DNA of 64,000 bases, taken from positions 2,166,437-2,230,436 of the forward strand of contig NZ_JARGZF010000001.1 of the NCBI RefSeq assembly GCF_029222705.1, read 5' to 3'. Below, in pieces: positions 52,777-63,949 of this stretch. How positions within the stretch are numbered: the first letter of the stretch is position 1; each line of letters opens with the position of its first letter. The translations under genes and the position numbers were made by a program. The notes beneath the pieces are model-generated. The model did not search any database and had not been told where the DNA came from. It saw only the letters and a program-made list of their open reading frames with translations. The DNA comes from Knoellia sp. p5-6-4 (GTDB taxonomy: Bacteria; Actinomycetota; Actinomycetes; Actinomycetales; Dermatophilaceae).

Positions 52777-53556
52777 TCAGCTCGACGTGGCCTCGCGGCG
52801 GAGCGCGAGGAGCAGGCGCAGGGCCTCGGCGACCTGCTCGGAGGTCTCGACCCGGTGGCGCGCCGCCGTGTCGCCCTCACCGACCTTGACGCTCACGTCG
52901 GGCCCGCGCATGACCTCGAAGGCGTGCTCGTCGGTGACGTCGTCCCCGAAGTAGAGGACGGCCTCGGCGCCCACCTTCTCCTGCAGCGCCAGCAGCGCGG
53001 TGCCCTTGTCGGCGGTGACGACCGACATCTCCACGACGTTCTTCCCCTGGAGCACCTTCACCCCGGTATGCCGCCCGGCCACCTCCAGCGCGGACCGCAC
53101 CGCCGCTTCGGCGACGGCCTCCTCCTCGCCGCGGGTGTGCAGGACGGTGGCCGCAGGCTTGTGCTCGAGCCGCACCCCGGGGTGCTCCTCGACCACGCCG
53201 TGCAGGTCGCCGGTCAGACGCTCGAGGAGCTTCCGCTGGTCGGTCGTCAGGTCGTGCGGGTCGTCGTCGTGGCTGCTCTGGGCGCCGTGGCTCCCGATGC
53301 GCGTGACCGGGCTGCCGTCCTCCAGGCCGGTCAGCTCGGTCAGCGCGTCGAGGTCGCGCCCGGACACCACGGCGGTGTGGGTGCGGGGGAGGCCCGCGAG
53401 GGCGACGAGGTCGTCGATGGTGCCCGGGAGCGGGCGGGCGTCCATCGGGTTCTTCACGAAGGGCGCGAGCACGCCGTCGAAGTCGGTGGCGACCAGCACC
53501 TCCGGAAGCCGGGCGAAGGCATGGAGGGCTGCGCTCAGCTCGGCGGGCACCGACAT
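52777..53556 (-). CDS. otsB: Trehalose-6-phosphate phosphatase OtsB
   Basis: 259 aa from ATG 53556. HAD-type phosphatase: VATDFDGVLAPFV (motif I, DxD), HTAVVSGRDLDAL (motif II), GDDVTDEHAFEVM (motif III/IV). It dephosphorylates trehalose-6-phosphate. Its ATG overlaps the otsA stop (TGATG), and it converges with malR 4 bp away. Confidence 0.94.
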   Translation of the reverse strand: MSVPAELSAALHAFARLPEVLVATDFDGVLAPFVKNPMDARPLPGTIDDLVALAGLPRTHTAVVSGRDLDALTELTGLEDGSPVTRIGSHGAQSSHDDDPHDLTTDQRKLLERLTGDLHGVVEEHPGVRLEHKPAATVLHTRGEEEAVAEAAVRSALEVAGRHTGVKVLQGKNVVEMSVVTADKGTALLALQEKVGAEAVLYFGDDVTDEHAFEVMRGPDVSVKVGEGDTAARHRVETSEQVAEALRLLLALRREATSS

Positions 53557-55079
53557 CAGCGGGAGACCCCTGCGTGCTCGGCGTGGTGCCGCTGCTCGGC
53601 CACGCTGTCGGCGGCGGCGTGCGCGTCGTCGGCCCGCTGCTCGCGGGTCGTGCGTGCCGGCCTGGCCGGGGCGTACTCGAGCGCCTCGAGGAACCGGGCA
53701 GCCCAGCGCTGCACGTCGTGGTCGGCGACGCGCCGACGCATGGCCTTCATGCGGCGGCGGCGCTCCGAGTCCGGGGCGGTCAGGGCGGTCATGATCGTCT
53801 GCTTGAGCCCGGCGATGTCGTGCGGGTTGCAGACGTAGGCCTGGTGCAGCTCGTGCCACGCACCGGTGAACTCCGAGAGCACCAGTGCGCCACCCCCGTC
53901 GTGACGGCAGGCCACGTACTCCTTGGCCACGAGGTTCATCCCGTCGCGCAGGGGCGTGACCAGAAGGACGTCGGCGGCGAGGAACATCGCCGCCATCTCG
54001 TCGCGGGGATAGGAGTGGTGCAGGTAGTGGACCGCGGCGGAACCGATGTCGCCGAACTCGCCGTTGACCCGGCCGACCTCCTTCTCGACCTCCTCGCGCA
54101 GCTCGCGGTAGGCGTCGACCCGCTCGCGGCTGGGGGTGGCCACCTGCACGAAGACCTGGTCGGGGGGCGCGACGGCGCCGTCCTCGAGCAGCTCGGCGTA
54201 GGCCTTGAGCCGGTGCCGGATGCCCTTGGTGTAGTCGAGCCGGTCGACGCCGAGGAAGATCGTCTCGGGGTTGCCGAGCGACTCGCGGATCTCCTTGGCC
54301 CGCTGGACGACCTCGGGGGTGCGCGCCAGCTCCTCGAGGCCGCGGAAGTCGACCGAGATGGGGATGGCGCTGGCCCGCACGACACGGGTCGCACCGTCGT
54401 CGAAGGTCGCGGTGACGGTGTCGCCCCTGGTGTTCAGGCCCAGCAGCTGACGGCAGGCGCGCAGGAAGTTGTGCGCGTCAGCGACGCGCTGGAAGCCGAG
54501 GAAGTCCGCCCCCAGCAGCCCCTCGACGAGCCGGCGACGCCACGGCAGCTGGGCGAACAGCTCGACCGGCGGGAAGGGGATGTGGTTGAACCAGCCGATC
54601 TTCACGTCCGGCCGCATCTCGCGGACCATCGAGGGGACGAGCTGCAGCTGGTAGTCGTGGACCCACACGGTGGCGTTCTCGGCGGCGACCTCGCAGACCG
54701 CCTCGGCGAAGCGCCGGTTGACCCGTTCGTAGGCGTGCCACCAGTAGCGGTGGAAGCTGGCCGGCACGATCACGTCGTGGTAGATCGGCCACAGGGTGTC
54801 GTTGCTGAAGCCCTCGTAGTAGTCGGCCACCTCCTCCTCGGACAGGGGCACCGGCCGCAGGTACATGCCGTCCTCGTCGAACGGCTCGGGGGCGTCGCCG
54901 GACTCCCCGGCCCAGCCCACCCAGGCGCCGTCGCGGCCGCGCATGACCGACTCCATGGCGGTCACGAGACCCCCCGGGCTGCGGCGCCACTCGATGCCGC
55001 CGTCAGGCAGGACCACGCGGTCGACGGGCAGGCGGTTGGCGGCGACGACCAGGTCGAAGGTGCGGGTGCTGCCGGACAC
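53556..55079 (-). CDS. otsA: Trehalose-6-phosphate synthase OtsA
   Basis: 507 aa from GTG 55079 (GGAG 8 nt upstream); an in-frame ATG at 55151 adds 24 unlike residues. GT20 motifs: LVVAANRLPVDRVVLPDGGI, HDYQLQLVPSMVREM, GWFNHIPFPP, FLGVDRLDYTKGIRHRLKAY and LRDGMNLVAKEYVA. It condenses UDP- or ADP-glucose with glucose-6-phosphate. About 35 His/Ala/Gln-rich residues extend the C-terminus. Operon with otsB. Located beside the maltodextrin cluster, so trehalose and maltodextrin use could be linked. Confidence 0.94.
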   Translation of the reverse strand: MSGSTRTFDLVVAANRLPVDRVVLPDGGIEWRRSPGGLVTAMESVMRGRDGAWVGWAGESGDAPEPFDEDGMYLRPVPLSEEEVADYYEGFSNDTLWPIYHDVIVPASFHRYWWHAYERVNRRFAEAVCEVAAENATVWVHDYQLQLVPSMVREMRPDVKIGWFNHIPFPPVELFAQLPWRRRLVEGLLGADFLGFQRVADAHNFLRACRQLLGLNTRGDTVTATFDDGATRVVRASAIPISVDFRGLEELARTPEVVQRAKEIRESLGNPETIFLGVDRLDYTKGIRHRLKAYAELLEDGAVAPPDQVFVQVATPSRERVDAYRELREEVEKEVGRVNGEFGDIGSAAVHYLHHSYPRDEMAAMFLAADVLLVTPLRDGMNLVAKEYVACRHDGGGALVLSEFTGAWHELHQAYVCNPHDIAGLKQTIMTALTAPDSERRRRMKAMRRRVADHDVQRWAARFLEALEYAPARPARTTREQRADDAHAAADSVAEQRHHAEHAGVSR

Positions 55080-55273
55080 AGGATCATCTCCAAGGTGCTG
55101 CGGGTGCGGGCACGCGCTGAGGTCCCCAGGCACGTGCGAAGGTTTCCTCAACCCTATGCCGAGCCTTCCTGACCTGCACCAACGACAGATGTCCTAGCCG
55201 TCCCCCGCGTGCTGCCTCCCGTCCTGCCACAGTTTCCCTAGCGCCGTCCCCCGGTGCGGTCTACCGTCGGACC

Positions 55274-55702
55274 ATGAAGATCTCGGATGTTGTGCGCCGC
55301 AAGGGCGACACGGTGGTCACGGTGCGACCCGACGACACGGTCCAGCAGCTGCTCGCGCTGCTCGGCGAGCATCGCATCGGTGCGCTGGTGGTCAGCGAGG
55401 ACGGCGAGCACGTCGCCGGCATCGTCAGCGAGCGGGACGTCGTCTGGCGGCTGGCGTCCGACGGCGCCAGCATCCTGGAGGCGACGGTCAGTGACATCAT
55501 GACCACCGACGTCAAGACCTGCGACTTCGAGGACCACCTCGAGGACCTCGCCCTCACCATGACCGAGATGCGCATCCGGCACGTGCCCGTGGTGGTCGAT
55601 GGCAAGCTGCGCGCCATCGTCAGCATCGGCGACATCGTCAAGAACCGCATCGACGAGCTCCAGTCCGAGCGCGACCAGCTGGTCGGCTACATCCAGCAGT
55701 GA
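55274..55702 (+). CDS. Two-CBS-domain protein
   Basis: 142 aa from ATG 55274: tandem CBS domains, MKISDVVRRKGDTVVTVRPD with EDGEHVAGIVSERDVVWRLA, then VSDIMTTDVKTCDFEDHLED with VPVVVDGKLRAIVSIGDIVK. Such stand-alone CBS proteins bind adenine nucleotides (AMP/ATP/SAM). Stand-alone gene before the Ser/Thr kinase; partner unknown. Confidence 0.92.
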   Translation: MKISDVVRRKGDTVVTVRPDDTVQQLLALLGEHRIGALVVSEDGEHVAGIVSERDVVWRLASDGASILEATVSDIMTTDVKTCDFEDHLEDLALTMTEMRIRHVPVVVDGKLRAIVSIGDIVKNRIDELQSERDQLVGYIQQ

Positions 55703-55745
55703 GCCGCTCTGACGGCTGACAGGGAGTCGGCCTAACGTAGGCGCC

Positions 55746-57446
55746 ATGACGACGGAGGCGATCGGCGGCGGCGACGGCTCAGTCGGCCTGCCCGGGAGCG
55801 GGCGCGTGGGCCCCTACCGCCTCGTGCAGCAGCTGGGCGAGGGCGGCATGGGCGTCGTCCACCTCGCGCTCGACCGCAGCGGCCGCGCCGTCGCGCTGAA
55901 GCTGCTGCGTCCGCACATCGCCCACGACTCCGACGCGCGGTCCAGGCTCGCGCGCGAGGTGGAGGTGCTGGGCCGCGTGCAGGACCCGCGGGTGGCGGCG
56001 GTCATCGACGCCGACCTCGACGGCGAGCGGCCCTACGTCGTGACCCGCTACGTGCCCGGGCCCTCGCTCGACGAGGTGGTCAAGGAGCAGGGGCCGCTCA
56101 CCGGCCAGGACCTGTTGCGCCTGGGCCGGGGGCTCGCTGCGGCGCTCGACGCCATCCACGCCGCGGGCGTCGTGCACCGCGACCTCAAGCCGGCCAACGT
56201 CCTGCTGCTCGACGGCGACCCCGTCGTCATCGACTTCGGCATCGCCCACATCGCCGACGACGTGCGCCTCACCATGACCGGCCTGGTCATGGGCACGCCG
56301 GGCTACCTCAGCCCCGAGGTGGTCGAGGGTGCGCAGGTCACCGAGGCCACGGACTGGTGGGGCTGGGCAGCCACCCTCGCCTTCGCAGCCTCGGGCACGC
56401 CACCGTTCGGGCGCGGCCCCATGGACGTCGTGCTGAGCCGGGTCAGCCGCGGGGAGGCCGACCTCTCCGGCGTCGACCCGCGGCTTTCGCCGCTGCTGTA
56501 TGCCGCGCTGTCCCCGGACCCGCGCCGGCGCCCCGACGCCGACGAGGTCGTCGAGGGGCTGGAGCGCTACGCCGCCGGCAAGCCGGCCACGAGGGCGCTG
56601 CCCGCGGCGGCGCCTGCGCGGCATACCCAGGTCATCGACCAGCGGGCGACCCGGGCGTGGGAGGAGCCGCCCGCACTGGGCCCGCTGTCCCTGCCCGTCG
56701 ACCACGAGCCCTACGAGTGGCAGGCGCCGGTGGACGACCGCAGCGTGCTCGCCCACTGGGACCCACCGCAGGCGCAGTCCGACGAGGTCTCCGACTGGCA
56801 GGCGGCGTGGGACGCCGACCCCAGCGAGCCCGACCCGCGCATCGGGCGCCCGCAGCGCAGCGGCACGCTGCTCGCGCTGCTGCTCGGCGTCGTCGCCGTC
56901 ACGGCCACCTGGCCCGTCGTCGGTGCGGTCCTGGTCGTGCTCTGGTGCTGGACCGCCCGCACGGCGGAGCGCTCGGTGACGTCTCTGGTGATGCGGCGCC
57001 ACCACCGGGGCCGGCGGCGCAGCGACGTGCCGCTGGCCGTGGCGGCCAGCCCCTGGCACCTGGTCGTGGGGGCCCTGGGGACGCTCGGCGGCCTCCTGCT
57101 GCCGCTCCTGGTCGGGGTCTCTGCGGTCTTCAGCACCGCGCTCGCGACCGTTGCCGTGACCGGGGGCTCGCCGGAGCCCAACGCCGCCGTGCCCATCGCC
57201 GTGGGTGGCCTGCTCGCTGCCCTCGTGGCGTGGTGGGGACCAGGGGGAGCAGCCCTGCGTCGTGGCACCCGCAGCGCCGTGCGCGGCCTCGCCCCGGGCG
57301 CCCGGGGCGCGCAGGTGGCGGTGCTGCTCGGCCTGGTCGTGGCGGCCGGGCTCGCCCTGTGGTCCTACCAGCGCGCCGGCGCTCCGTTCTGGTGGCCGTG
57401 GCAGGCGCCCTCGGAGATCTGGGCAGGGGTGGGCCCGCCCCGATGA
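55746..57446 (+). CDS. Membrane Ser/Thr protein kinase (PknB-like)
   Basis: 566 aa. Kinase domain residues about 20-280: glycine loop LGEGGMGVVHLA, VAIKL-like VALKLLRPH (Lys), catalytic loop VVHRDLKPANVLLLDGD, DFGIAHIADD (DFG) and GTPGYLSPEVVEGAQ. The second half has several hydrophobic helices (LLALLLGVVAVTATWPVVGA, VVGALGTLGGLLLPLLVGVS), unlike the PASTA-bearing PknB. It lacks an extracellular sensor of note. Adjacent 11 bp later is a ThrE-type exporter, perhaps cotranscribed. Confidence 0.91.
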   Translation: MTTEAIGGGDGSVGLPGSGRVGPYRLVQQLGEGGMGVVHLALDRSGRAVALKLLRPHIAHDSDARSRLAREVEVLGRVQDPRVAAVIDADLDGERPYVVTRYVPGPSLDEVVKEQGPLTGQDLLRLGRGLAAALDAIHAAGVVHRDLKPANVLLLDGDPVVIDFGIAHIADDVRLTMTGLVMGTPGYLSPEVVEGAQVTEATDWWGWAATLAFAASGTPPFGRGPMDVVLSRVSRGEADLSGVDPRLSPLLYAALSPDPRRRPDADEVVEGLERYAAGKPATRALPAAAPARHTQVIDQRATRAWEEPPALGPLSLPVDHEPYEWQAPVDDRSVLAHWDPPQAQSDEVSDWQAAWDADPSEPDPRIGRPQRSGTLLALLLGVVAVTATWPVVGAVLVVLWCWTARTAERSVTSLVMRRHHRGRRRSDVPLAVAASPWHLVVGALGTLGGLLLPLLVGVSAVFSTALATVAVTGGSPEPNAAVPIAVGGLLAALVAWWGPGGAALRRGTRSAVRGLAPGARGAQVAVLLGLVVAAGLALWSYQRAGAPFWWPWQAPSEIWAGVGPPR

Positions 57447-57456
57447 CGAGCCGCCG

Positions 57457-58965
57457 ATGACGGATGTTGCCGAGGGCCCTGCCAGCCAGTCGAGCCTGCC
57501 GGAGCGGCGGGCCCTGCCGCGCCGTCCGCGGGTGCCGCGGGGCCTGTGGCGGGGCGAGGAGCTCACCGAGACCCTGCCGATCGCCGACTCCCTGCGCCTG
57601 ACGCCCTACCGCAACCCCCGCGTGCTCGCCGCCGCCGCGGAGGAGCGGGAGGCCCGGGCCTCGCTCGACCTGGCGCTGCGGGTGGGGGAACTGATGCTGC
57701 GCTGTGGGGCGGGCGCGCCGCAGGTCGAGTCGAGCGTCACCGCCGTCGCCGCCGCGGCCGGCCTCGACAACCTCGAGGTCGACATCACCCTGCAGTCGCT
57801 GCTCGTGCAGTGCACGACCAGCTCGGGCGGCCAGATCACCATGCTGCGCGTCGTGCGCTCGGCGACGCGCGACTTCGCCCGGCTCGTCGCCGTGCACGAG
57901 TTCGTCGAGAACCTCGTGGCCGGCAGCTACGACCGTGAGGCGGCCGCGGCGCGGTTGCGGGAGATCCGGCGGATGCCACGGTTCTGGCCGCGCTGGGTGG
58001 TGCACGGCTCGATGGGGGTGCTGTCCGCCGCGGTCGCGATCATGCTCGGCGCCTCGCTGTCCGCCTCGCTCGTCGCAGGCGTCTCGGCCGTCTTCGTCGA
58101 CAGCACAGCCCGCAGGCTGGGGGCGCGGGGCCTGCCCGAGTTCTACCAGTGCGCGATCGGCGGGTTCATCGCCACGGCCATCGCGTGGGGCGCGTTCTCC
58201 GTGGGGGCGGCCGGCGCGCTGCCGGTGAGCTCTGCGGACTTCGCCTACATCGTGGCGGGCGGCATCGTGGTGCTCCTGCCCGGGCGGACGGTCGCCTCGG
58301 CATTCGAGGACGTCATCTCGGGCTACTCGGTGACAGGAGCCGGCCGCATGTTCGGCGTGCTCCTCACCACGGCGGGCATCATCCTGGGCGTCGCCGCCGC
58401 GCTGTCGATGACGCTGAAGCTGACGGCTGCCCTCGACCTGTCGCTGGCCTCGCCCAGCATCCTCGAGCTGAGGGCGACCGACGCGCCGGTGGTGCTCGGT
58501 GTGCTCGGTGCCATCGTCGTCGGCCTGGCGGGCGCCGTCTCGCTGCGCTCGCGGCGCGAGCTGGTCCTGCCGACAGGCCTGCTCTGCGGGGCAGGGGTGG
58601 GACTGTCGCTGGTCGTGAGCCTCGTGCCCGGCCTCGGAGCGCTGACGGCAGCAGGCCTGGCCAGCATCGCCCTCGGGTTCGTCGGGCGGCTGGTGGCGCT
58701 GCGGATGGGGGCACCGGCCATGGTGCTCGTCGTGCCCGCGTCCTACGGCCTCCTGCCGGGTCTGGCCATATTCCGGGGTCTCTACGAGATGGTGACGCAC
58801 GCGTCGGCAGACGCCGGCAGCCTCTCCCTCCAGGGCGGCATCACGACGCTGTTGGGGGCGTTCGCGGTCCTGCTGGCCATCGCCACCGGGACCACGCTCG
58901 GTGAGCTCCTCGGCGCGCCGTTCGACCACCGGATGGTCCAGAAGCGCCGGGCCCGACGGCGGTGA
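57457..58965 (+). CDS. ThrE-type threonine/serine exporter
   Basis: 502 aa from ATG 57457. N-terminal domain with LDLALRVGELMLRCGAGAPQ VES-type motif (GAGAPQVESSVTAVA), HEFVENLVAG, and about ten helices in two repeats (DUF1212 and DUF3815-like): GVLSAAVAIMLGASLSASL, AYIVAGGIVVLLPGRTVASA, PAMVLVVPASYGLLPGLAIF. Corynebacterium ThrE exports threonine and serine; substrate here inferred. Follows the kinase gene by 11 bp. Confidence 0.9.
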   Translation: MTDVAEGPASQSSLPERRALPRRPRVPRGLWRGEELTETLPIADSLRLTPYRNPRVLAAAAEEREARASLDLALRVGELMLRCGAGAPQVESSVTAVAAAAGLDNLEVDITLQSLLVQCTTSSGGQITMLRVVRSATRDFARLVAVHEFVENLVAGSYDREAAAARLREIRRMPRFWPRWVVHGSMGVLSAAVAIMLGASLSASLVAGVSAVFVDSTARRLGARGLPEFYQCAIGGFIATAIAWGAFSVGAAGALPVSSADFAYIVAGGIVVLLPGRTVASAFEDVISGYSVTGAGRMFGVLLTTAGIILGVAAALSMTLKLTAALDLSLASPSILELRATDAPVVLGVLGAIVVGLAGAVSLRSRRELVLPTGLLCGAGVGLSLVVSLVPGLGALTAAGLASIALGFVGRLVALRMGAPAMVLVVPASYGLLPGLAIFRGLYEMVTHASADAGSLSLQGGITTLLGAFAVLLAIATGTTLGELLGAPFDHRMVQKRRARRR

Positions 58966-59175
58966 CGTCGCGGCGCGACACCGCGCCCGCGGCATACCCG
59001 GTCAAAACCTGCCGAGGCGGGCCGCCAAAAGATCACGAACGGATTACGGCGAACTGCTTGTCGCGATTCGACAACCCCCGGTACCGTCTTCGCTTGGCAC
59101 CGATTGCCGCCGGGTTCAGCGCCTTTCTCCCGGGTCTCACAACTTCACACAGCACACCCAAGCACGCACACCCGC
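58966..59175 (+). other. Upstream part of the rpf leader
   Basis: 210 bp between the ThrE-type gene and the riboswitch. It must hold the rpf promoter, since the ThrE gene is unlikely to be its only source of transcription. A GGCATAC octamer (58991) and AT-richer stretch (AACGGATTACGGCGAACTGC) are visible, but I see no convincing -35/-10 pair. Confidence 0.4.
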
Positions 59176-59349
59176 AGCGCCTAACCTCGTCCGGCGGGTG
59201 TTTCGCCGGGAGATCCCCGGGCAGGACGAGGGTGGGGGAACCAACTCGGCCCGCTCCGGCGGGCCTTGGGGTGAAGCCGGTCCGCCGGCCGGGCGCCTGA
59301 CAGCCCGAACCCGACAGCTCACCTCTTCGGCGCACGTCAGGAGAGGATC
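59176..59349 (+). ncRNA. c-di-AMP riboswitch (ydaO-yuaA) of rpf
   Basis: The leader ends just before rpf. It carries the ydaO signature blocks: GGGGGAACCAA, a GC stem, UUGGGGUGAAGCCGG, then CCCGAACCCGACAGCUCACC followed by a CGGCG stem and the ribosome site GGAGAGG. These match the c-di-AMP riboswitch aptamer known upstream of rpf genes in Streptomyces and relatives, which shuts off expression when c-di-AMP is high. The site is 8 bp from the start codon, so the expression platform probably masks the ribosome site. Confidence 0.9.
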
Positions 59350-59356
59350 CCCGCGC

Positions 59357-60082
59357 ATGTTCTATGCCCCGAAGCACTCCGCTCGGAAGCAGAGCCCCGT
59401 CCGCCGGCGCATGGCCGGCGTCGCTGTTGCCGGAGTCGCCACCGTCGGCGCCGGCCTCGCCACCGCCTCCGGCGCCCAGGCCGGCACCGTCTGGGACCGC
59501 CTCGCCAGCTGCGAGAGCGGCGGCCGGTGGAACATCAACACCGGCAACGGCTACTACGGCGGCCTTCAGTTCTCGTACAGCACGTGGAAGGCGTTCGGCG
59601 GCCAGCGCTACGCCTACACCGCCGACCGCGCGAGCAAGGCCCAGCAGATCATGGTCGCCCAGAAGGTCCTCCAGGTGCAGGGCCCCGGCGCCTGGCCGCA
59701 CTGCAGCGTCGTCGCGGGCCTCACCCGCACCAACGGCGGTGCCGTCAACGCGGGCTCGACCGTGGCTGCCTCGCGGTCGAGCGCACGCACCGCGGTCCCG
59801 GCCCGCTCCACCAGCTCGACGGGGAAGCTGGCCGTCGACGGCATCCGCGGCCCCCTCACCAACGCCGCCATCGAGCGCTGGGTCGGCGGCTCGGTCAACG
59901 GCAGCCTCTCGCGCACCGACATCCAGCGCCTGCAGCGCCGGGTCGGCTCGGCTCCCGACGGCATCATCGGCCCCAAGACGGTGCGCGCCCTGCAGACCAC
60001 GATCGGCGCACCCCGCACCGGCGCCCGCTACCTCGACCGCGACACCGTCCGCGCCCTGCAGCGCTACCTGAACGCTCGCTGA
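59357..60082 (+). CDS. Resuscitation-promoting factor with PG-binding-like domain
   Basis: 241 aa from ATG 59357. Sec signal peptide (about 1-42, GVATVGAGLATASGAQA). The Rpf domain, residues 43-118, has the lysozyme-like core DRLASCESGGRWN with the conserved Glu53 and disulfide Cys52, then YYGGLQFSYSTWKAF. A Ser/Thr/Ala linker follows, then a DGIRGPLTNAAIERWVGG and LQRRVGSAPDGIIGPKTVRAL pair of peptidoglycan-binding-like repeats. It cleaves peptidoglycan glycan during growth or resuscitation. Regulated by the preceding c-di-AMP riboswitch. Confidence 0.93.
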   Translation: MFYAPKHSARKQSPVRRRMAGVAVAGVATVGAGLATASGAQAGTVWDRLASCESGGRWNINTGNGYYGGLQFSYSTWKAFGGQRYAYTADRASKAQQIMVAQKVLQVQGPGAWPHCSVVAGLTRTNGGAVNAGSTVAASRSSARTAVPARSTSSTGKLAVDGIRGPLTNAAIERWVGGSVNGSLSRTDIQRLQRRVGSAPDGIIGPKTVRALQTTIGAPRTGARYLDRDTVRALQRYLNAR

Positions 60083-60098
60083 CGCCTCGCGCGCTGGC

Positions 60099-60142
60099 CG
60101 AACGGGGTCCTGCCCACCTCATCGTGGGCAGGACCCCGTTCG
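60099..60142. terminator. Terminator after rpf, 19-bp perfect arms
   Basis: CGAACGGGGTCCTGCCCAC (60099-60117) pairs exactly with GTGGGCAGGACCCCGTTCG (60124-60142) around CTCATC. It lies 17 bp after the rpf stop. Confidence 0.92.
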
Positions 60143-60229
60143 TATGCCGTGCGCCGACCCTGTGGGTTGCGGGCACCGGCGGGTGTGCCGGGTACGATTT
60201 CGGCGATCCCGCGGCATCGGTGCGGGCTC

Positions 60230-60302
60230 GCCGGCGTGGCGCAATTGGCAGCGCACCTGTCTTGTAAACAGGTGGTTAGGGGTTCGAGTCCCCTCGTCGG
60301 CT
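60230..60302 (+). tRNA. tRNA-Thr (TGT)
   Basis: 73 nt. Acceptor arm GCCGGCG pairs with CGTCGGC (one G-U); the anticodon stem CCTGT/ACAGG closes the loop CTTGTAA with anticodon TGT, reading ACA (Thr). The T arm GGGGTTCGAGTCCCC is perfect and the D arm is GCGC/GCGC. CCA is not encoded. It stands alone between rpf and a minus-strand gene. Confidence 0.97.
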
Positions 60303-60396
60303 CTCTGGCCAGCGACGAGGTGCCTCCCCGCGCCCGCTGGGACCGGCCCACCGGGCTCCCCCGGATGCTGGTGCAGCACGGGACGGGCGATGAAAC

Positions 60397-61104
60397 TCAG
60401 CCGAGCTGCTGCCGGTGGGCGGTGTTGATCCGCTCGGCGAGGGCAGCGAGCTTGGTGTTGGTCCGGCTCGAGGCGCTGCGCAGGATGGCGAAGGCCTCCT
60501 CGTCATCGACCGAGTGGGCGGCCATCAGCAGCCCGACCGCCTTCCCGATCTCACGGTTGCTGTCCAGTCCCCGGCGCAGGCTCTCGACACTGGACAGGTG
60601 CTCGGCGGCCGCGAGCGCCACCGAGGTGAAGGCCGCCAGCATGGCGCCGACACCGACCGACTCCTCGGTCAGGGCTCCCGGGGTGTCGGAGAAGATGTTC
60701 AGGGCTGAGCGTCCGCCGGCTCCCTGCTGGAGCCTGAACCCGAGCATGCCGCGGATCGGCGTCCTGCTCAGCGTGAGCTCGGCGAGGACGGGCCACGTCG
60801 ATGACGAGGCGATGTCCTCGTCGCGTTGGACGGAGTCCCCGACGATGCTGTCGAGGCACGGCCCCTCCTGTGCCTCGCTCTCCAGGCTGTCCATGAGGCG
60901 CGCCACGGCATCACTGGCCGCGAGCGTGCGCAGCCGCATGCCCTTCTCCAAGGTGGAGATGCAGGCGTGATCGGCTCCCGGCACGATGTCGAGCGCTGCG
61001 CGGCAGATGGCGTCCAGGACCTCTTGGGAGCTGGATCCGGTGTAGACGAGCTCGGCGAGGGAGGCGAACGCCTCAGTGGACTCGCGGGGGATGGGCTCCT
61101 GCAT
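60397..61104 (-). CDS. GAF-ANTAR RNA-binding regulator
   Basis: 235 aa from ATG 61104. GAF domain about 10-155 (LAELVYTGSSSQEVLDAICR, ADHACISTLEKGMRLRTLAA), ANTAR domain at the C-terminus (about 170-225: SLRRGLDSNREIGKAVGLLM, then AFAILRSASSRTNTKLAALA). ANTAR proteins bind dual-hairpin RNAs and prevent termination. The GAF may sense a ligand. Target RNAs are not identifiable nearby. A 14-bp hairpin lies behind its start, terminating the next upstream operon. Confidence 0.92.
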   Translation of the reverse strand: MQEPIPRESTEAFASLAELVYTGSSSQEVLDAICRAALDIVPGADHACISTLEKGMRLRTLAASDAVARLMDSLESEAQEGPCLDSIVGDSVQRDEDIASSSTWPVLAELTLSRTPIRGMLGFRLQQGAGGRSALNIFSDTPGALTEESVGVGAMLAAFTSVALAAAEHLSSVESLRRGLDSNREIGKAVGLLMAAHSVDDEEAFAILRSASSRTNTKLAALAERINTAHRQQLG

Positions 61105-61198: not shown

Positions 61199-61444
61199 CT
61201 AGGCAGCCCCGGGCCGGGGCGCGACCGCGGCTCCTCCGCAGGGCTCCGCCGGCCCGCTGCCGTCGTGCCCGCTGCCGTCGTGCCCGCTGCCGTCGTGCCC
61301 GTGAGACGTCTTCTCGGCATGGGCCTCGATGGACACCTGGGCCGTCCAGACGTGACCGTGGTTGCAGGCGAACAGCACCTCCCCGCCGCTGACGAAGATG
61401 CTCAGGTCGCCATCGTCGTCGGTGTGCTTCATCCGCGTGGTCAT
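61199..61444 (-). CDS. MKHTDDDG-family small protein A, His/Gly/Asp-rich tail
   Basis: 81 aa from ATG 61444, which overlaps the upstream membrane-protein stop (ATGA). The first 40 residues (MKHTDDDGDLSIFVSG, then VLFACNHGHVWTAQVSIE) match protein B at 62111 at 28 of 36 positions. The tail holds three HDGSG repeats and other His, suggesting metal binding. No membrane helix or signal. I do not recognise the family. The conserved C-x-x-GH could be half of a zinc site. Confidence 0.72.
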   Translation of the reverse strand: MTTRMKHTDDDGDLSIFVSGGEVLFACNHGHVWTAQVSIEAHAEKTSHGHDGSGHDGSGHDGSGPAEPCGGAAVAPRPGAA

Positions 61445-61842
61445 GGCGCGGCCGCGGCGTGTGCGCCGTGGGAGCGCGACAACCCGAACGCGTCCGGGTA
61501 GAGCGTCTGGGCCTTGCTCAGCAGGTCCTGCTCGCGGCTGGTGCTCAGCACGCCCTCGAGCTTCTGCTGGGTCCGCTTGACCTCGGTCATGGCCTGGGCG
61601 GCCTTGGCCTCGGCGTGCTCGCGACCGGCGGCTCCGAACCAGTAGCCGAGCGCGGTGGTGAGCAGCGGCAGGACGACCAGCAGGACGTCCTTGGCCCGCT
61701 GGTAGGTGTCGAGCACGTGCCCTTGGCCGTCCCACGTGGGGACCGACGAGATCTGGCCTGCGACGGCCAGGAGCCAGTAGGCGGTGATGACGAAGAGGAT
61801 TCCCGTGATCATCGCCCTGATGTACATCGCTGTTCTTTCCAT
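61441..61842 (-). CDS. Two-helix membrane protein with coiled coil
   Basis: 133 aa from ATG 61842 (GGGGGTGCC before it). Two hydrophobic segments (MITGILFVITAYWLLAVAG and LLVVLPLLTTALGYWFGAA) are followed by a helical, charged segment (EHAEAKAAQAMTEVKRTQQK) resembling a coiled coil. Unknown family. Overlaps protein A by 4 bp in an operon. Confidence 0.78.
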   Translation of the reverse strand: MERTAMYIRAMITGILFVITAYWLLAVAGQISSVPTWDGQGHVLDTYQRAKDVLLVVLPLLTTALGYWFGAAGREHAEAKAAQAMTEVKRTQQKLEGVLSTSREQDLLSKAQTLYPDAFGLSRSHGAHAAAAP

Positions 61843-61894
61843 GGCACCCCCCTGGTTGCACGCTCAAGGCTGCACCCACTTCAGTAGGCCGTAA

Positions 61895-61912
61895 CTCATG
61901 CAAATGCATGAG
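61895..61912. promoter_or_regulatory. AT-rich palindrome upstream of the small operon
   Basis: CTCATGCAAATGCATGAG has perfect 7-bp arms around AAAT. It lies 53 bp upstream of the membrane-protein start in the lowest-GC stretch of the window (61890-61970, AATTTTTGGTATCAGTGCC). It is a good operator candidate. No -35/-10 pair can be assigned. Confidence 0.55.
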
Positions 61913-62110
61913 GGACGGTCAATTTTTGGTATCAGTGCCTTCGTTTGAGTTTCTTCCTGTCCCTTTGAGGGCTCTTGTGTCGAGAGTCTGCCCGGTGGTC
62001 GCGGTCGCGCTGAGACGCGGCGCGCGGTGCGGCACGGGTGCGCGGCGCGGCATACACGCAGCCCTTCGACGAGAAGGCGGGTCCCCCTGGACGGTGTGCT
62101 CGGACGTGCG
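61913..62110. other. Non-coding gap between small operon and protein B
   Basis: The first 60 bp are AT-rich and look like promoter DNA; the rest is high-GC with no conserved ORF, repeat or terminator that I can see. A GGCATAC octamer is at 62049. The minus-strand transcript of protein B must end in or run through this stretch. Confidence 0.4.
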
Positions 62111-62365
62111 TCAGTCGAAGCCCAGCGCCCTCGGCAGGGCCGGGCCGAAGCGGCGGACCAGCTCGGCATAGCGCTCGTGCTCCACGGACAGCTCCTCGAG
62201 CTCGTCCTCGGTCTCACCCACGTCGGTGTCCGGGTGCCGCGTCGGCCCCACGCCGGGCTCGATGGAGACCGGCGCGGTCCACGCGTGGCCCCTGTCGCAG
62301 GCGAACAGCACGAGGTCCCCGCTGACGAACACGCTCAGCTCGCCGTCGTCGTCGGTGTGCTTCAT
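62111..62365 (-). CDS. MKHTDDDG-family small protein B
   Basis: 84 aa from ATG 62365. It shares MKHTDDDGELSVFVSGDLVL and FACDRGHAWTAPVSIE with protein A. The tail is acidic and helical (GETEDELEELSVEHERYAEL) rather than His-rich, so the shared 36-residue head carries different C-terminal modules. No signal or membrane helix. Unknown family; probably a duplicate of A. Confidence 0.75.
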   Translation of the reverse strand: MKHTDDDGELSVFVSGDLVLFACDRGHAWTAPVSIEPGVGPTRHPDTDVGETEDELEELSVEHERYAELVRRFGPALPRALGFD

Positions 62366-62531: not shown

Positions 62532-62765
62532 ATGGCGGAGGCAGCCGCGGAAGCCGCTCCCCAGCCTCGCTCCCGACTCCACGACCGTCTGGCCGGATGG
62601 TGGTCGCACTGGCTGGGCCGGCACGCGCCGCTGATGGACGACCCGGGGCTGGGTCGCCTCGACCGCTTCGACGGGGTCGCGCCCGGCAGCGAGAGCCCCG
62701 CGCGACGCGACCGTCTCGGCGGGTCCGGCGCTTCCCCGGACCTCCCGGGCAGGAGCACCCGCTAG
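62532..62765 (+). CDS. Small basic/acidic protein, uncertain
   Basis: 77 aa from ATG 62532 with GGGGAGGTCGTC in front. The product (LHDRLAGWWSHWLGRHAPLM) has an amphipathic Trp-rich segment, then a Gly/Arg/Asp/Ser tail. No family recognised. The ribosome site is good, but length and composition alone cannot prove it is translated. CapA follows 53 bp later. Confidence 0.45.
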   Translation: MAEAAAEAAPQPRSRLHDRLAGWWSHWLGRHAPLMDDPGLGRLDRFDGVAPGSESPARRDRLGGSGASPDLPGRSTR

Positions 62766-62818: not shown

Positions 62819-63949
62819 ATGGCGGCAGGAGGCATGGCGGCGGAGCTCCGACTCGTCCTGGCCGGCGACGTCATGACGGGCCGGGGGATCGACCAGGTGC
62901 TGCCTCACCCCGTACCGCCCGAGCTGCACGAGGACTACGTGCACGATGCCCGGACCTACGTCGCCCTCGCCGAGCGCGTCAACGGCGCGATCCCGCGGGC
63001 CGTCGAGCCCACCTGGCCCTGGGGTGAGGCCCTGGCGGCCATGGACGGTTTCGGCCCGGCGGTGCGGATCCTGAACCTCGAGACCAGCGTCACCGAGAGC
63101 GCGGACTGGGCCCGCGGCAAGGCCGTCACCTACCGGATGAGCCCGGCCAACCTCGACGTCGTCGCCGTCGCCCGAGCGGACGTGTGGGCGCTGGCCAACA
63201 ACCACGTGCTGGACTACGGCCGGTCCGGCCTGCTGGAGACCCTGCGCGTCCTGGCCGGCGCCGGCCTGCGCACGGCCGGTGCCGGGCAGGACGAGCGCGA
63301 CGCCTGGCGGCCGGCCGTCGTCGAGTGCGGCGGAGGCCAGCGGGTGGTCGTGGTCTCGGTCGGCGACACCTCCAGCGGGGTGCCCCCGCAGTGGGCTGCC
63401 GGGCCGGGACGGCCGGGTGTGGCGCTGCTGCCCGACCTCGGCCGGGGGACGGCTCACCGGGTGGCCGAGCGGCTGCTCGAGGGCGGCCGCCCCGGCGACC
63501 TGCGCGTCGTGTCGATCCACTGGGGAGGCAACTGGGGCTACGAGGTCCTGCACGAGCACCGTCGTTTCGCCCACGCCCTGGTGGACGCCGGGGTGCACGT
63601 CGTCCACGGGCACTCCTCGCACCACCCGCGGCCCATCGAGGTCTACCGGGGAGGGCTGGTGCTCTACGGGTGCGGTGACCTGGTCAACGACTACGAGGGC
63701 ATCGGCGGCTTCGAGGCCTACCGCGACGACCTGCGGGCGCTGTACCTCGCCCGCCTCGACCCGGGCGCCGCCGGGGTGCTCGGGCTGAGGCTCGTGCCCC
63801 TGGTCGTGCGGCGGTTCCGGCTCGAGCGGGCGTCCCCCGACGACACCCGCTGGCTCGGCGACACCCTCAGCCGGGCCGGGCGCTCTGTGGGGACCGCCCT
63901 CGGCGTGGCCGAGGAGGCGGACGGCCCGGTCCTGGACGTGCGCTGGTGA
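62819..63949 (+). CDS. CapA-family metallophosphoesterase-like protein
   Basis: 376 aa from ATG 62819; ATG 62834 is equally well served by AGGAGGC. The PGA-capsule (CapA) fold: LVLAGDVMTGRG, LNLETSVTESADW, WALANNHVLDYGRSGLLETL, VSIHWGGNWGYEV and GHSSHHPRPIEVY are the conserved metal-binding blocks. No signal peptide, unlike classical CapA, so it may be a cytoplasmic relative. Family sure, role unknown. Confidence 0.88.
   Translation: MAAGGMAAELRLVLAGDVMTGRGIDQVLPHPVPPELHEDYVHDARTYVALAERVNGAIPRAVEPTWPWGEALAAMDGFGPAVRILNLETSVTESADWARGKAVTYRMSPANLDVVAVARADVWALANNHVLDYGRSGLLETLRVLAGAGLRTAGAGQDERDAWRPAVVECGGGQRVVVVSVGDTSSGVPPQWAAGPGRPGVALLPDLGRGTAHRVAERLLEGGRPGDLRVVSIHWGGNWGYEVLHEHRRFAHALVDAGVHVVHGHSSHHPRPIEVYRGGLVLYGCGDLVNDYEGIGGFEAYRDDLRALYLARLDPGAAGVLGLRLVPLVVRRFRLERASPDDTRWLGDTLSRAGRSVGTALGVAEEADGPVLDVRW

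Follow-up and report, generated by a model that had tools for sequence, protein, structure and literature searches.

Lineage-restricted paired small genes with a common head and a coupled membrane gene in Knoellia sp. p5-6-4

The window analyzed here, a stretch of 64,000 nucleotides of Knoellia sp. p5-6-4 (contig NZ_JARGZF010000001.1), contains two small genes, designated A and B, whose products share an N-terminal head and end in different tails, and a gene for a membrane protein, designated P, which lies between them. Judged by sequence comparison, this is a lineage-restricted, undescribed gene pair with a coupled membrane gene, and the clear relatives were confined to the window genome and Pedococcus cremeus (contig NZ_FOHB01000004.1), members of one genus. 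The sequence-only reading had proposed a hitherto undescribed family of small proteins that differ in their tails and are encoded next to a membrane gene, and the proteins indeed proved to be unnamed in the libraries searched. Our tentative reading, to which we assign a probability of about 0.3, is that A and B are a lineage-restricted pair of metal-knuckle proteins, with A working together with P as a membrane anchor. The features are listed in Table 1.

Table 1. Location of the genes and sequence elements in the window, and their counterparts in P. cremeus
Feature	Coordinates	Strand	Description	P. cremeus
A	61199..61444	-	81 aa; head and His/Gly/Asp tail	L013:4864-5064
Minisatellite	61252..61301	-	15-bp unit, 3.3 copies; encodes HDGSG repeat in tail of A
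P	61441..61842	-	133 aa; two predicted membrane helices	L013:4427-4867, 80 % identical
Palindrome	61889..61918		AT-rich; upstream of P; core 61895-61912
Conserved block	61917..61933	-	GATACC(A/G)AAAATTGACC; upstream of P	conserved
B	62111..62365	-	84 aa; head and acidic helical tail	L013:4001-4255, 86 % identical
S	62532..62765	+	77-aa open reading frame between B and CapA	51 % identical
CapA	62819..63949	+	CapA / PGA_cap (PF09587); divergent from B	same place

Distribution, gene order and coding character

Exact peptide seeds of B were scanned against a collection of 84,980 species genomes and matched 209 stretches, two of which encoded something similar. One lay in P. cremeus (87 % identity over B residues 1-83); the other, in Chitinophaga, covered 18 residues inside a protein and was taken as chance. 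A profile of the head matched 29 of 396 genomes of the order at E <= 0.1 (two clear, the remainder at E >= 0.0105), 14 of 184 genomes of the family at E <= 0.1 (two clear, the remainder at E >= 0.0096) and 18 of 394 genomes of the class at E <= 0.05, where the window genome alone was clear (the remainder at E >= 0.0018) and the second clear genome, taken to be that of P. cremeus and missing from that list, had probably not been drawn; the order and class sets are samples, and the genomes of the separate searches overlap. Of the genus Pedococcus, for which the NCBI taxonomy has seven named species, the collection contains two genomes, and narrowness within the genus is thus beyond its scope. 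Searches with P gave matches in 3 of 396 genomes of the order at E <= 0.01 and in 6 of 184 of the family at E <= 0.1, with two clear in each; the five sub-threshold matches (one in the order search and four in the family search) included one inside a long open frame (L049). Head and membrane gene, whose co-occurrence had been put forward as a check, were both present in both genomes clearly having either. The head was neither absent from other genomes nor found only as non-coding repeats, the two findings that would have spoken against the family, and it occurred in one other species only.

With full-length B as query, 186 family genomes gave matches in six at E <= 0.01: two were clear (the window genome and that of the same genus) and four were weak, at E 3.6e-4 to 0.004. 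The weak matches spanned query residues 24-80, 4-74, 35-80 and 34-77, the second span taking in the head, and lay in open frames of 191 (with an internal stop), 832, 846 and 211 aa; none of these sites appeared in the list of head-profile matches from the 184 family genomes.

The conserved block of genes comprises B, P and A together with S and CapA, and in P. cremeus these run in the order CapA (-), S (-), B (+), P (+), A (+); the window shows the same arrangement inverted. By comparison of the two species, A, B and P are genes and not repeats, because this order recurs in P. cremeus at 64-86 % identity and with dN/dS of 0.14 for B and 0.22 for P. The values underlying these ratios were dN 0.080 and dS 0.575 for B, in which 7, 6 and 26 changes fell at codon positions 1, 2 and 3, and dN 0.124 and dS 0.560 for P. 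The CapA proteins are 75 % identical (dN 0.166, dS 0.622). The S protein (RLAGWWSHWLGRHAPLMDDPGLGRLDRFDGVA) had no match in Pfam or NCBIfam. A search of 38 relatives with the CapA protein gave matches at E <= 1e-40 in two, each belonging to this genus, and a close relative of this neighbor gene is therefore also lineage-restricted in that sample.

The shared gene order runs on past CapA (FUSC and beyond) and ends after A. A gene for a GAF-ANTAR protein (60397-61104, minus strand) comes immediately after A in the same direction; it was rejected as a core part of the operon, as A of P. cremeus is followed by a convergent 382-aa open reading frame without a Pfam match. Positions 53556-60303 hold genes for a glycosyltransferase of family 20 (trehalose-phosphate synthase type), a CBS-domain protein, a Ser/Thr kinase, a ThrE exporter and an Rpf-like transglycosylase with a peptidoglycan-binding domain, and a tRNA-Thr(tgt).

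The AT-rich palindrome noted earlier upstream of P is real, with a core of CTCATGCA-AA-TGCATGAG and arms that reach 14 nt at 86 % complementarity, but as a control element it was neither conserved nor recurrent. The corresponding sequence upstream of P in P. cremeus is not a palindrome, and a genome search that allowed up to 2 mismatches placed the 18-bp pattern three times (once exactly, twice with 2 mismatches) and its control, the pattern read backwards, once; with one exact copy in the genome and no palindrome in P. cremeus, an operator or regulon signal was rejected. The block that is conserved in both species contains TTGACC, which may act as a promoter-like -35 box, and the palindrome lies just downstream of this block.

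Library searches returned no name for A, B or P. The window copies of A and B had no match in Pfam up to E 10, and the only matches in NCBIfam and PHROGs were non-significant (A at E 0.064 and B of P. cremeus at E 0.39, respectively). PADLOC assigned no family to A, B or P of either species, no match was found in phage and plasmid records for B (E <= 1) or P (E <= 10), scanning viral contigs with seeds from the head and from P gave no relative, and a literature search for 'KHTDDDG' gave no match. Small genes, a narrow distribution and a two-helix membrane protein are what would be expected if the cassette were a selfish or defence element (a toxin-antitoxin pair, a phage remnant or an effector with two membrane helices), and P weakly resembles Rz-like spanin profiles in PHROGs (phrog_2975, E 0.012), being likewise a membrane helix followed by a coiled coil. 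These searches of defence, phage, plasmid and viral data count against such an element, as does the collinear neighborhood on the CapA side, and we consider it unlikely. The weak spanin match arises because it covers the membrane helix and the coiled coil; its E-value is not significant, no lysis genes were identified among the neighbors, and the neighbors scanned are housekeeping and envelope genes. On these results P does not class as a phage spanin.

Heads, tails and the membrane protein

The head common to A and B had been counted at 28 identical positions of 36, and this count was reproduced. Searched against its own genome, B retrieved A at E 1.5e-14, so the likeness of the heads is not chance; A as query gave two further matches there, at E 0.015 and 0.29. 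The Asp run, the Cys and the GH singled out from the window sequence are invariant in all four heads (A and B of the two species), and conservation extends beyond the 36 residues to His44 of B. The C-x3-H motif and a further His 21 residues past the Cys are invariant and aligned without gaps in all four, and position +23 after the Cys is D, D, H or E, so that a fourth ligand is not invariant. Each head has one Cys, and the acidic run DDDG is conserved as strongly as the C/H pair. The A-A and B-B pairs are each identical at 31 of 36 positions and the A-B pairs at 26-28 of 36; heads of like genes are thus the closer ones, and these pairwise identities, taken without a tree, suggest that the head was duplicated before the species split.

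The start of A is fixed by its overlap with the stop codon of P, which reads ATGA in the window and GTGA in P. cremeus. The protein does not begin at MKHT; translation starts at 61444 (MTTRMKHT), and the second Met is Leu in P. cremeus. The His/Gly/Asp repeat tail of A is present in the window, but it is the product of the minisatellite and is absent from A of P. cremeus, whose tail lacks the HDGSG repeat yet is still His-rich; the tails of the two species contain 5 and 4 His. The two A proteins are 64 % identical over 66 aligned residues, with dN 0.347, dS 0.547 and dN/dS of about 0.63, and on this comparison the constraint on A is located in the head, with the tail loosely kept.

The acidic tail described for B is retained in P. 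cremeus at 41 of 48 positions. Translation of B may in fact begin three codons earlier, at a GTG found in both species. The structure prediction proposed for the head was available for B as a low-confidence AlphaFold model (four rows, mean pLDDT 68.5, pTM 0.32), which has three strands (10-15, 18-23 and 28-32), with C23 and H27 at a strand turn, and then a helical tail (53-80). A Foldseek search of the PDB with this model (pLDDT 68.5) gave 436 matches at E <= 10, of which the best had E 0.5 and none reached E <= 0.001.

As had been read from the window, a two-helix membrane protein lies between A and B and is coupled to A, the ATGA overlap joining the two genes. The hydrophobic stretches of P were located by 19-residue windows starting from 4-17 and 51-55, and the charges flanking the helices suggest that both ends of the protein are inside. 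The C-terminal helix is long and has the conserved end LLSKAQxLYPDAFGL; in the AlphaFold model (two rows, pLDDT 63.8) a helix at 71-114 follows the hydrophobic stretches.

Candidate functions of the cassette

Of the two roles first suggested, metal and stress, the sequence points to metal. Metal binding by the head is plausible, being predicted from the C-x3-H motif, the further His, weak matches to zinc-finger proteins and the turn in the model. Under the metal-knuckle reading, A and B would be paralogous small cytosolic proteins in which the common segment of 44-46 residues folds as a minimal hairpin for a metal, probably zinc; its three beta strands would place C23 and H27 (B numbering) in the turn, and the site would be completed by H44 together with an acidic or His residue at position 46. 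P would be a membrane protein with a cytoplasmic helix; A would be produced together with P and most likely dock on it, and its His-rich tail would add metal ligands. B would carry its own helix instead and act as a free or exchangeable partner, and together A and B would retain or sense metal at the membrane, their genes lying beside the CapA-type envelope gene. Gene order is what points to the docking of A on P, the A/B exchange and the envelope link, which we infer on that basis.

The head supplies three invariant candidate ligands (C23, H27 and H44) and a variable fourth, and the model in which they are placed has a pLDDT of 68.5. It could equally well be read as a metal-free beta hairpin serving as a protein-protein docking module, with A and B as two adaptors for P and the single Cys and His serving folding or redox. 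The lone Cys of each head and the varying fourth ligand fit this alternative, and so do the DDDG run, as conserved as the C/H pair, and the lack of a match of A or B to zinc families at a significant E-value. Against it, C-x3-H-x-W in a strand turn together with the invariant His44 is typical of zinc hairpins, and the tail of A contains His in both species; we regard the metal-free hairpin as possible, though well short of probable.

Small lineage-restricted genes are common. If the metal-knuckle reading is true, a metal-hairpin gene was duplicated in one lineage and acquired two different tails, one copy being coupled to a membrane anchor, which would offer a clean small case for testing the origin of new domain combinations. 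Three protein families unnamed in the libraries searched (the head, P and S) are added to the lineage-restricted genes of actinobacteria.

Comparison of the head with zinc-binding families

Zinc-finger proteins made up 7 of the 27 non-self loci among the weak head matches in the order and 5 of 16 loci in the class (L088, L089, L093, L094 and L095), shares that stand without a control for the background rate. The order loci were RbpA (L019, L020), DUF4379 (L025, L039), DUF7455 (L042) and CheB-linked knuckles (L022, L031); Pfam confirmed the names of L019, L039 and L042, and the others were read from sequence. L022, L031, L089 and L094 are what we take to be a CheB-linked zinc ribbon, and L022 matched no Pfam family up to E 1. 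Two further loci, L083 and L084, presumably ValRS- and metallo-hydrolase-like, matched the DDDG end of the head, which was taken as chance. Among PDB sequences, 10 chains matched the head at E <= 10; the best was a glycosyl hydrolase (E 0.077), ahead of the chains with an RbpA stretch, 2m6o (labelled uncharacterized; E 0.11), 8hvr (0.59) and 8dy7 (0.60). Overall the head resembles a zinc-hairpin-like turn, and its resemblance to any one family is weak and below significance.

The RbpA core of Streptomyces binds zinc, and the C-terminal sigma-interaction part of RbpA is of the type RTHWDMLLERR. A first C-x3-H zinc knuckle in a beta hairpin, a trait of RbpA, was found in the head sequence and in the low-confidence model. 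Like the RbpA core (PF13397), the head has a strand-turn-strand with C-x3-H, an aromatic residue and S-x-E downstream over 22-26 aligned columns, and the alignment to the first half of the core is gapless (VLFACxxGHxWTAxvSIE against VEYACExGHxFxxPFSVEA). The best two non-self matches in the order were RbpA of another genus (L019 at E 0.0105 and L020 at 0.0108), and a third RbpA-like gene gave a weaker match in the class (L093, E 0.029). Comparison of the head with 25 RbpA sequences by hhalign gave a probability of 45 % (E 2e-4 for a single comparison); these were the 25 of 30 loci that yielded sequence through a motif filter (5 were dropped), and they contain the filter motif HWDML by construction. 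On these grounds A and B might be cut-down RbpA relatives that contact the transcription machinery while P tethers them to the membrane. Plain column shuffles never attained the RbpA score (0 of 200 in both shuffle runs), but with C..GH.W held fixed 2 of 200 did so for the head and 1 of 200 for the extended head, and DUF4379 scored as high or higher. A and B also lack the C-terminal part and the second Cys knuckle (CxC/CxxC) of RbpA, the head has an acidic N-terminus (DDDG), neither protein matched RbpA in Pfam up to E 10, thus falling below the Pfam cut-off, and the genome of the window already has two ordinary RbpA genes, all of which makes a shortened RbpA improbable. More improbable still is the idea that A and B are RbpA-core-like docking domains of a membrane-tethered polymerase factor that carries an envelope or metal signal to transcription. 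Such domains would bind the polymerase clamp, or some other partner with a zinc domain, and would alternate between a state anchored on P, represented by A, and a free coiled-coil state, represented by B.

Of the 39 genomes sampled from the order, 28, among them that of the window, carried two RbpA matches, and the second Cys knuckle was absent from some RbpA copies in two genera (L019 and L020; L073 and L074). RbpA is described in PMC6151718 as having a beta-sandwich core.

The DUF4379 treble clef (PF14311) shares SG-x4-(F/W)-x-C-x2-GH-x-W with the head, with hhalign probabilities of 72-95 % depending on the rows used. Because the CheB set and the first DUF4379 set were picked for having matched the head, their scores carry an upward bias; two further DUF4379 sets, of 3 and 11 rows, came from a family search with a Cys/His motif filter, and with the extended head and C..GH.W held fixed their scores were reached by 1 of 200 (three-row set) and 4 of 200 (eleven-row set) shuffles. 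The head did not reach the Pfam cut-off for DUF4379, and a search of the window's genome for the family found none at E <= 0.001. DUF4379 has its own C-x2-C about 19 residues on, whereas the head stands as a single unit in which H-x-(D/H/E) occupies +21/+23. DUF7455 (PF24254) has an earlier Cys pair, which the head lacks; in its one member compared by eye, L042, the strand-and-turn sequence LLFCAHHGHAF stands against VLFACNHGHAW of the head.
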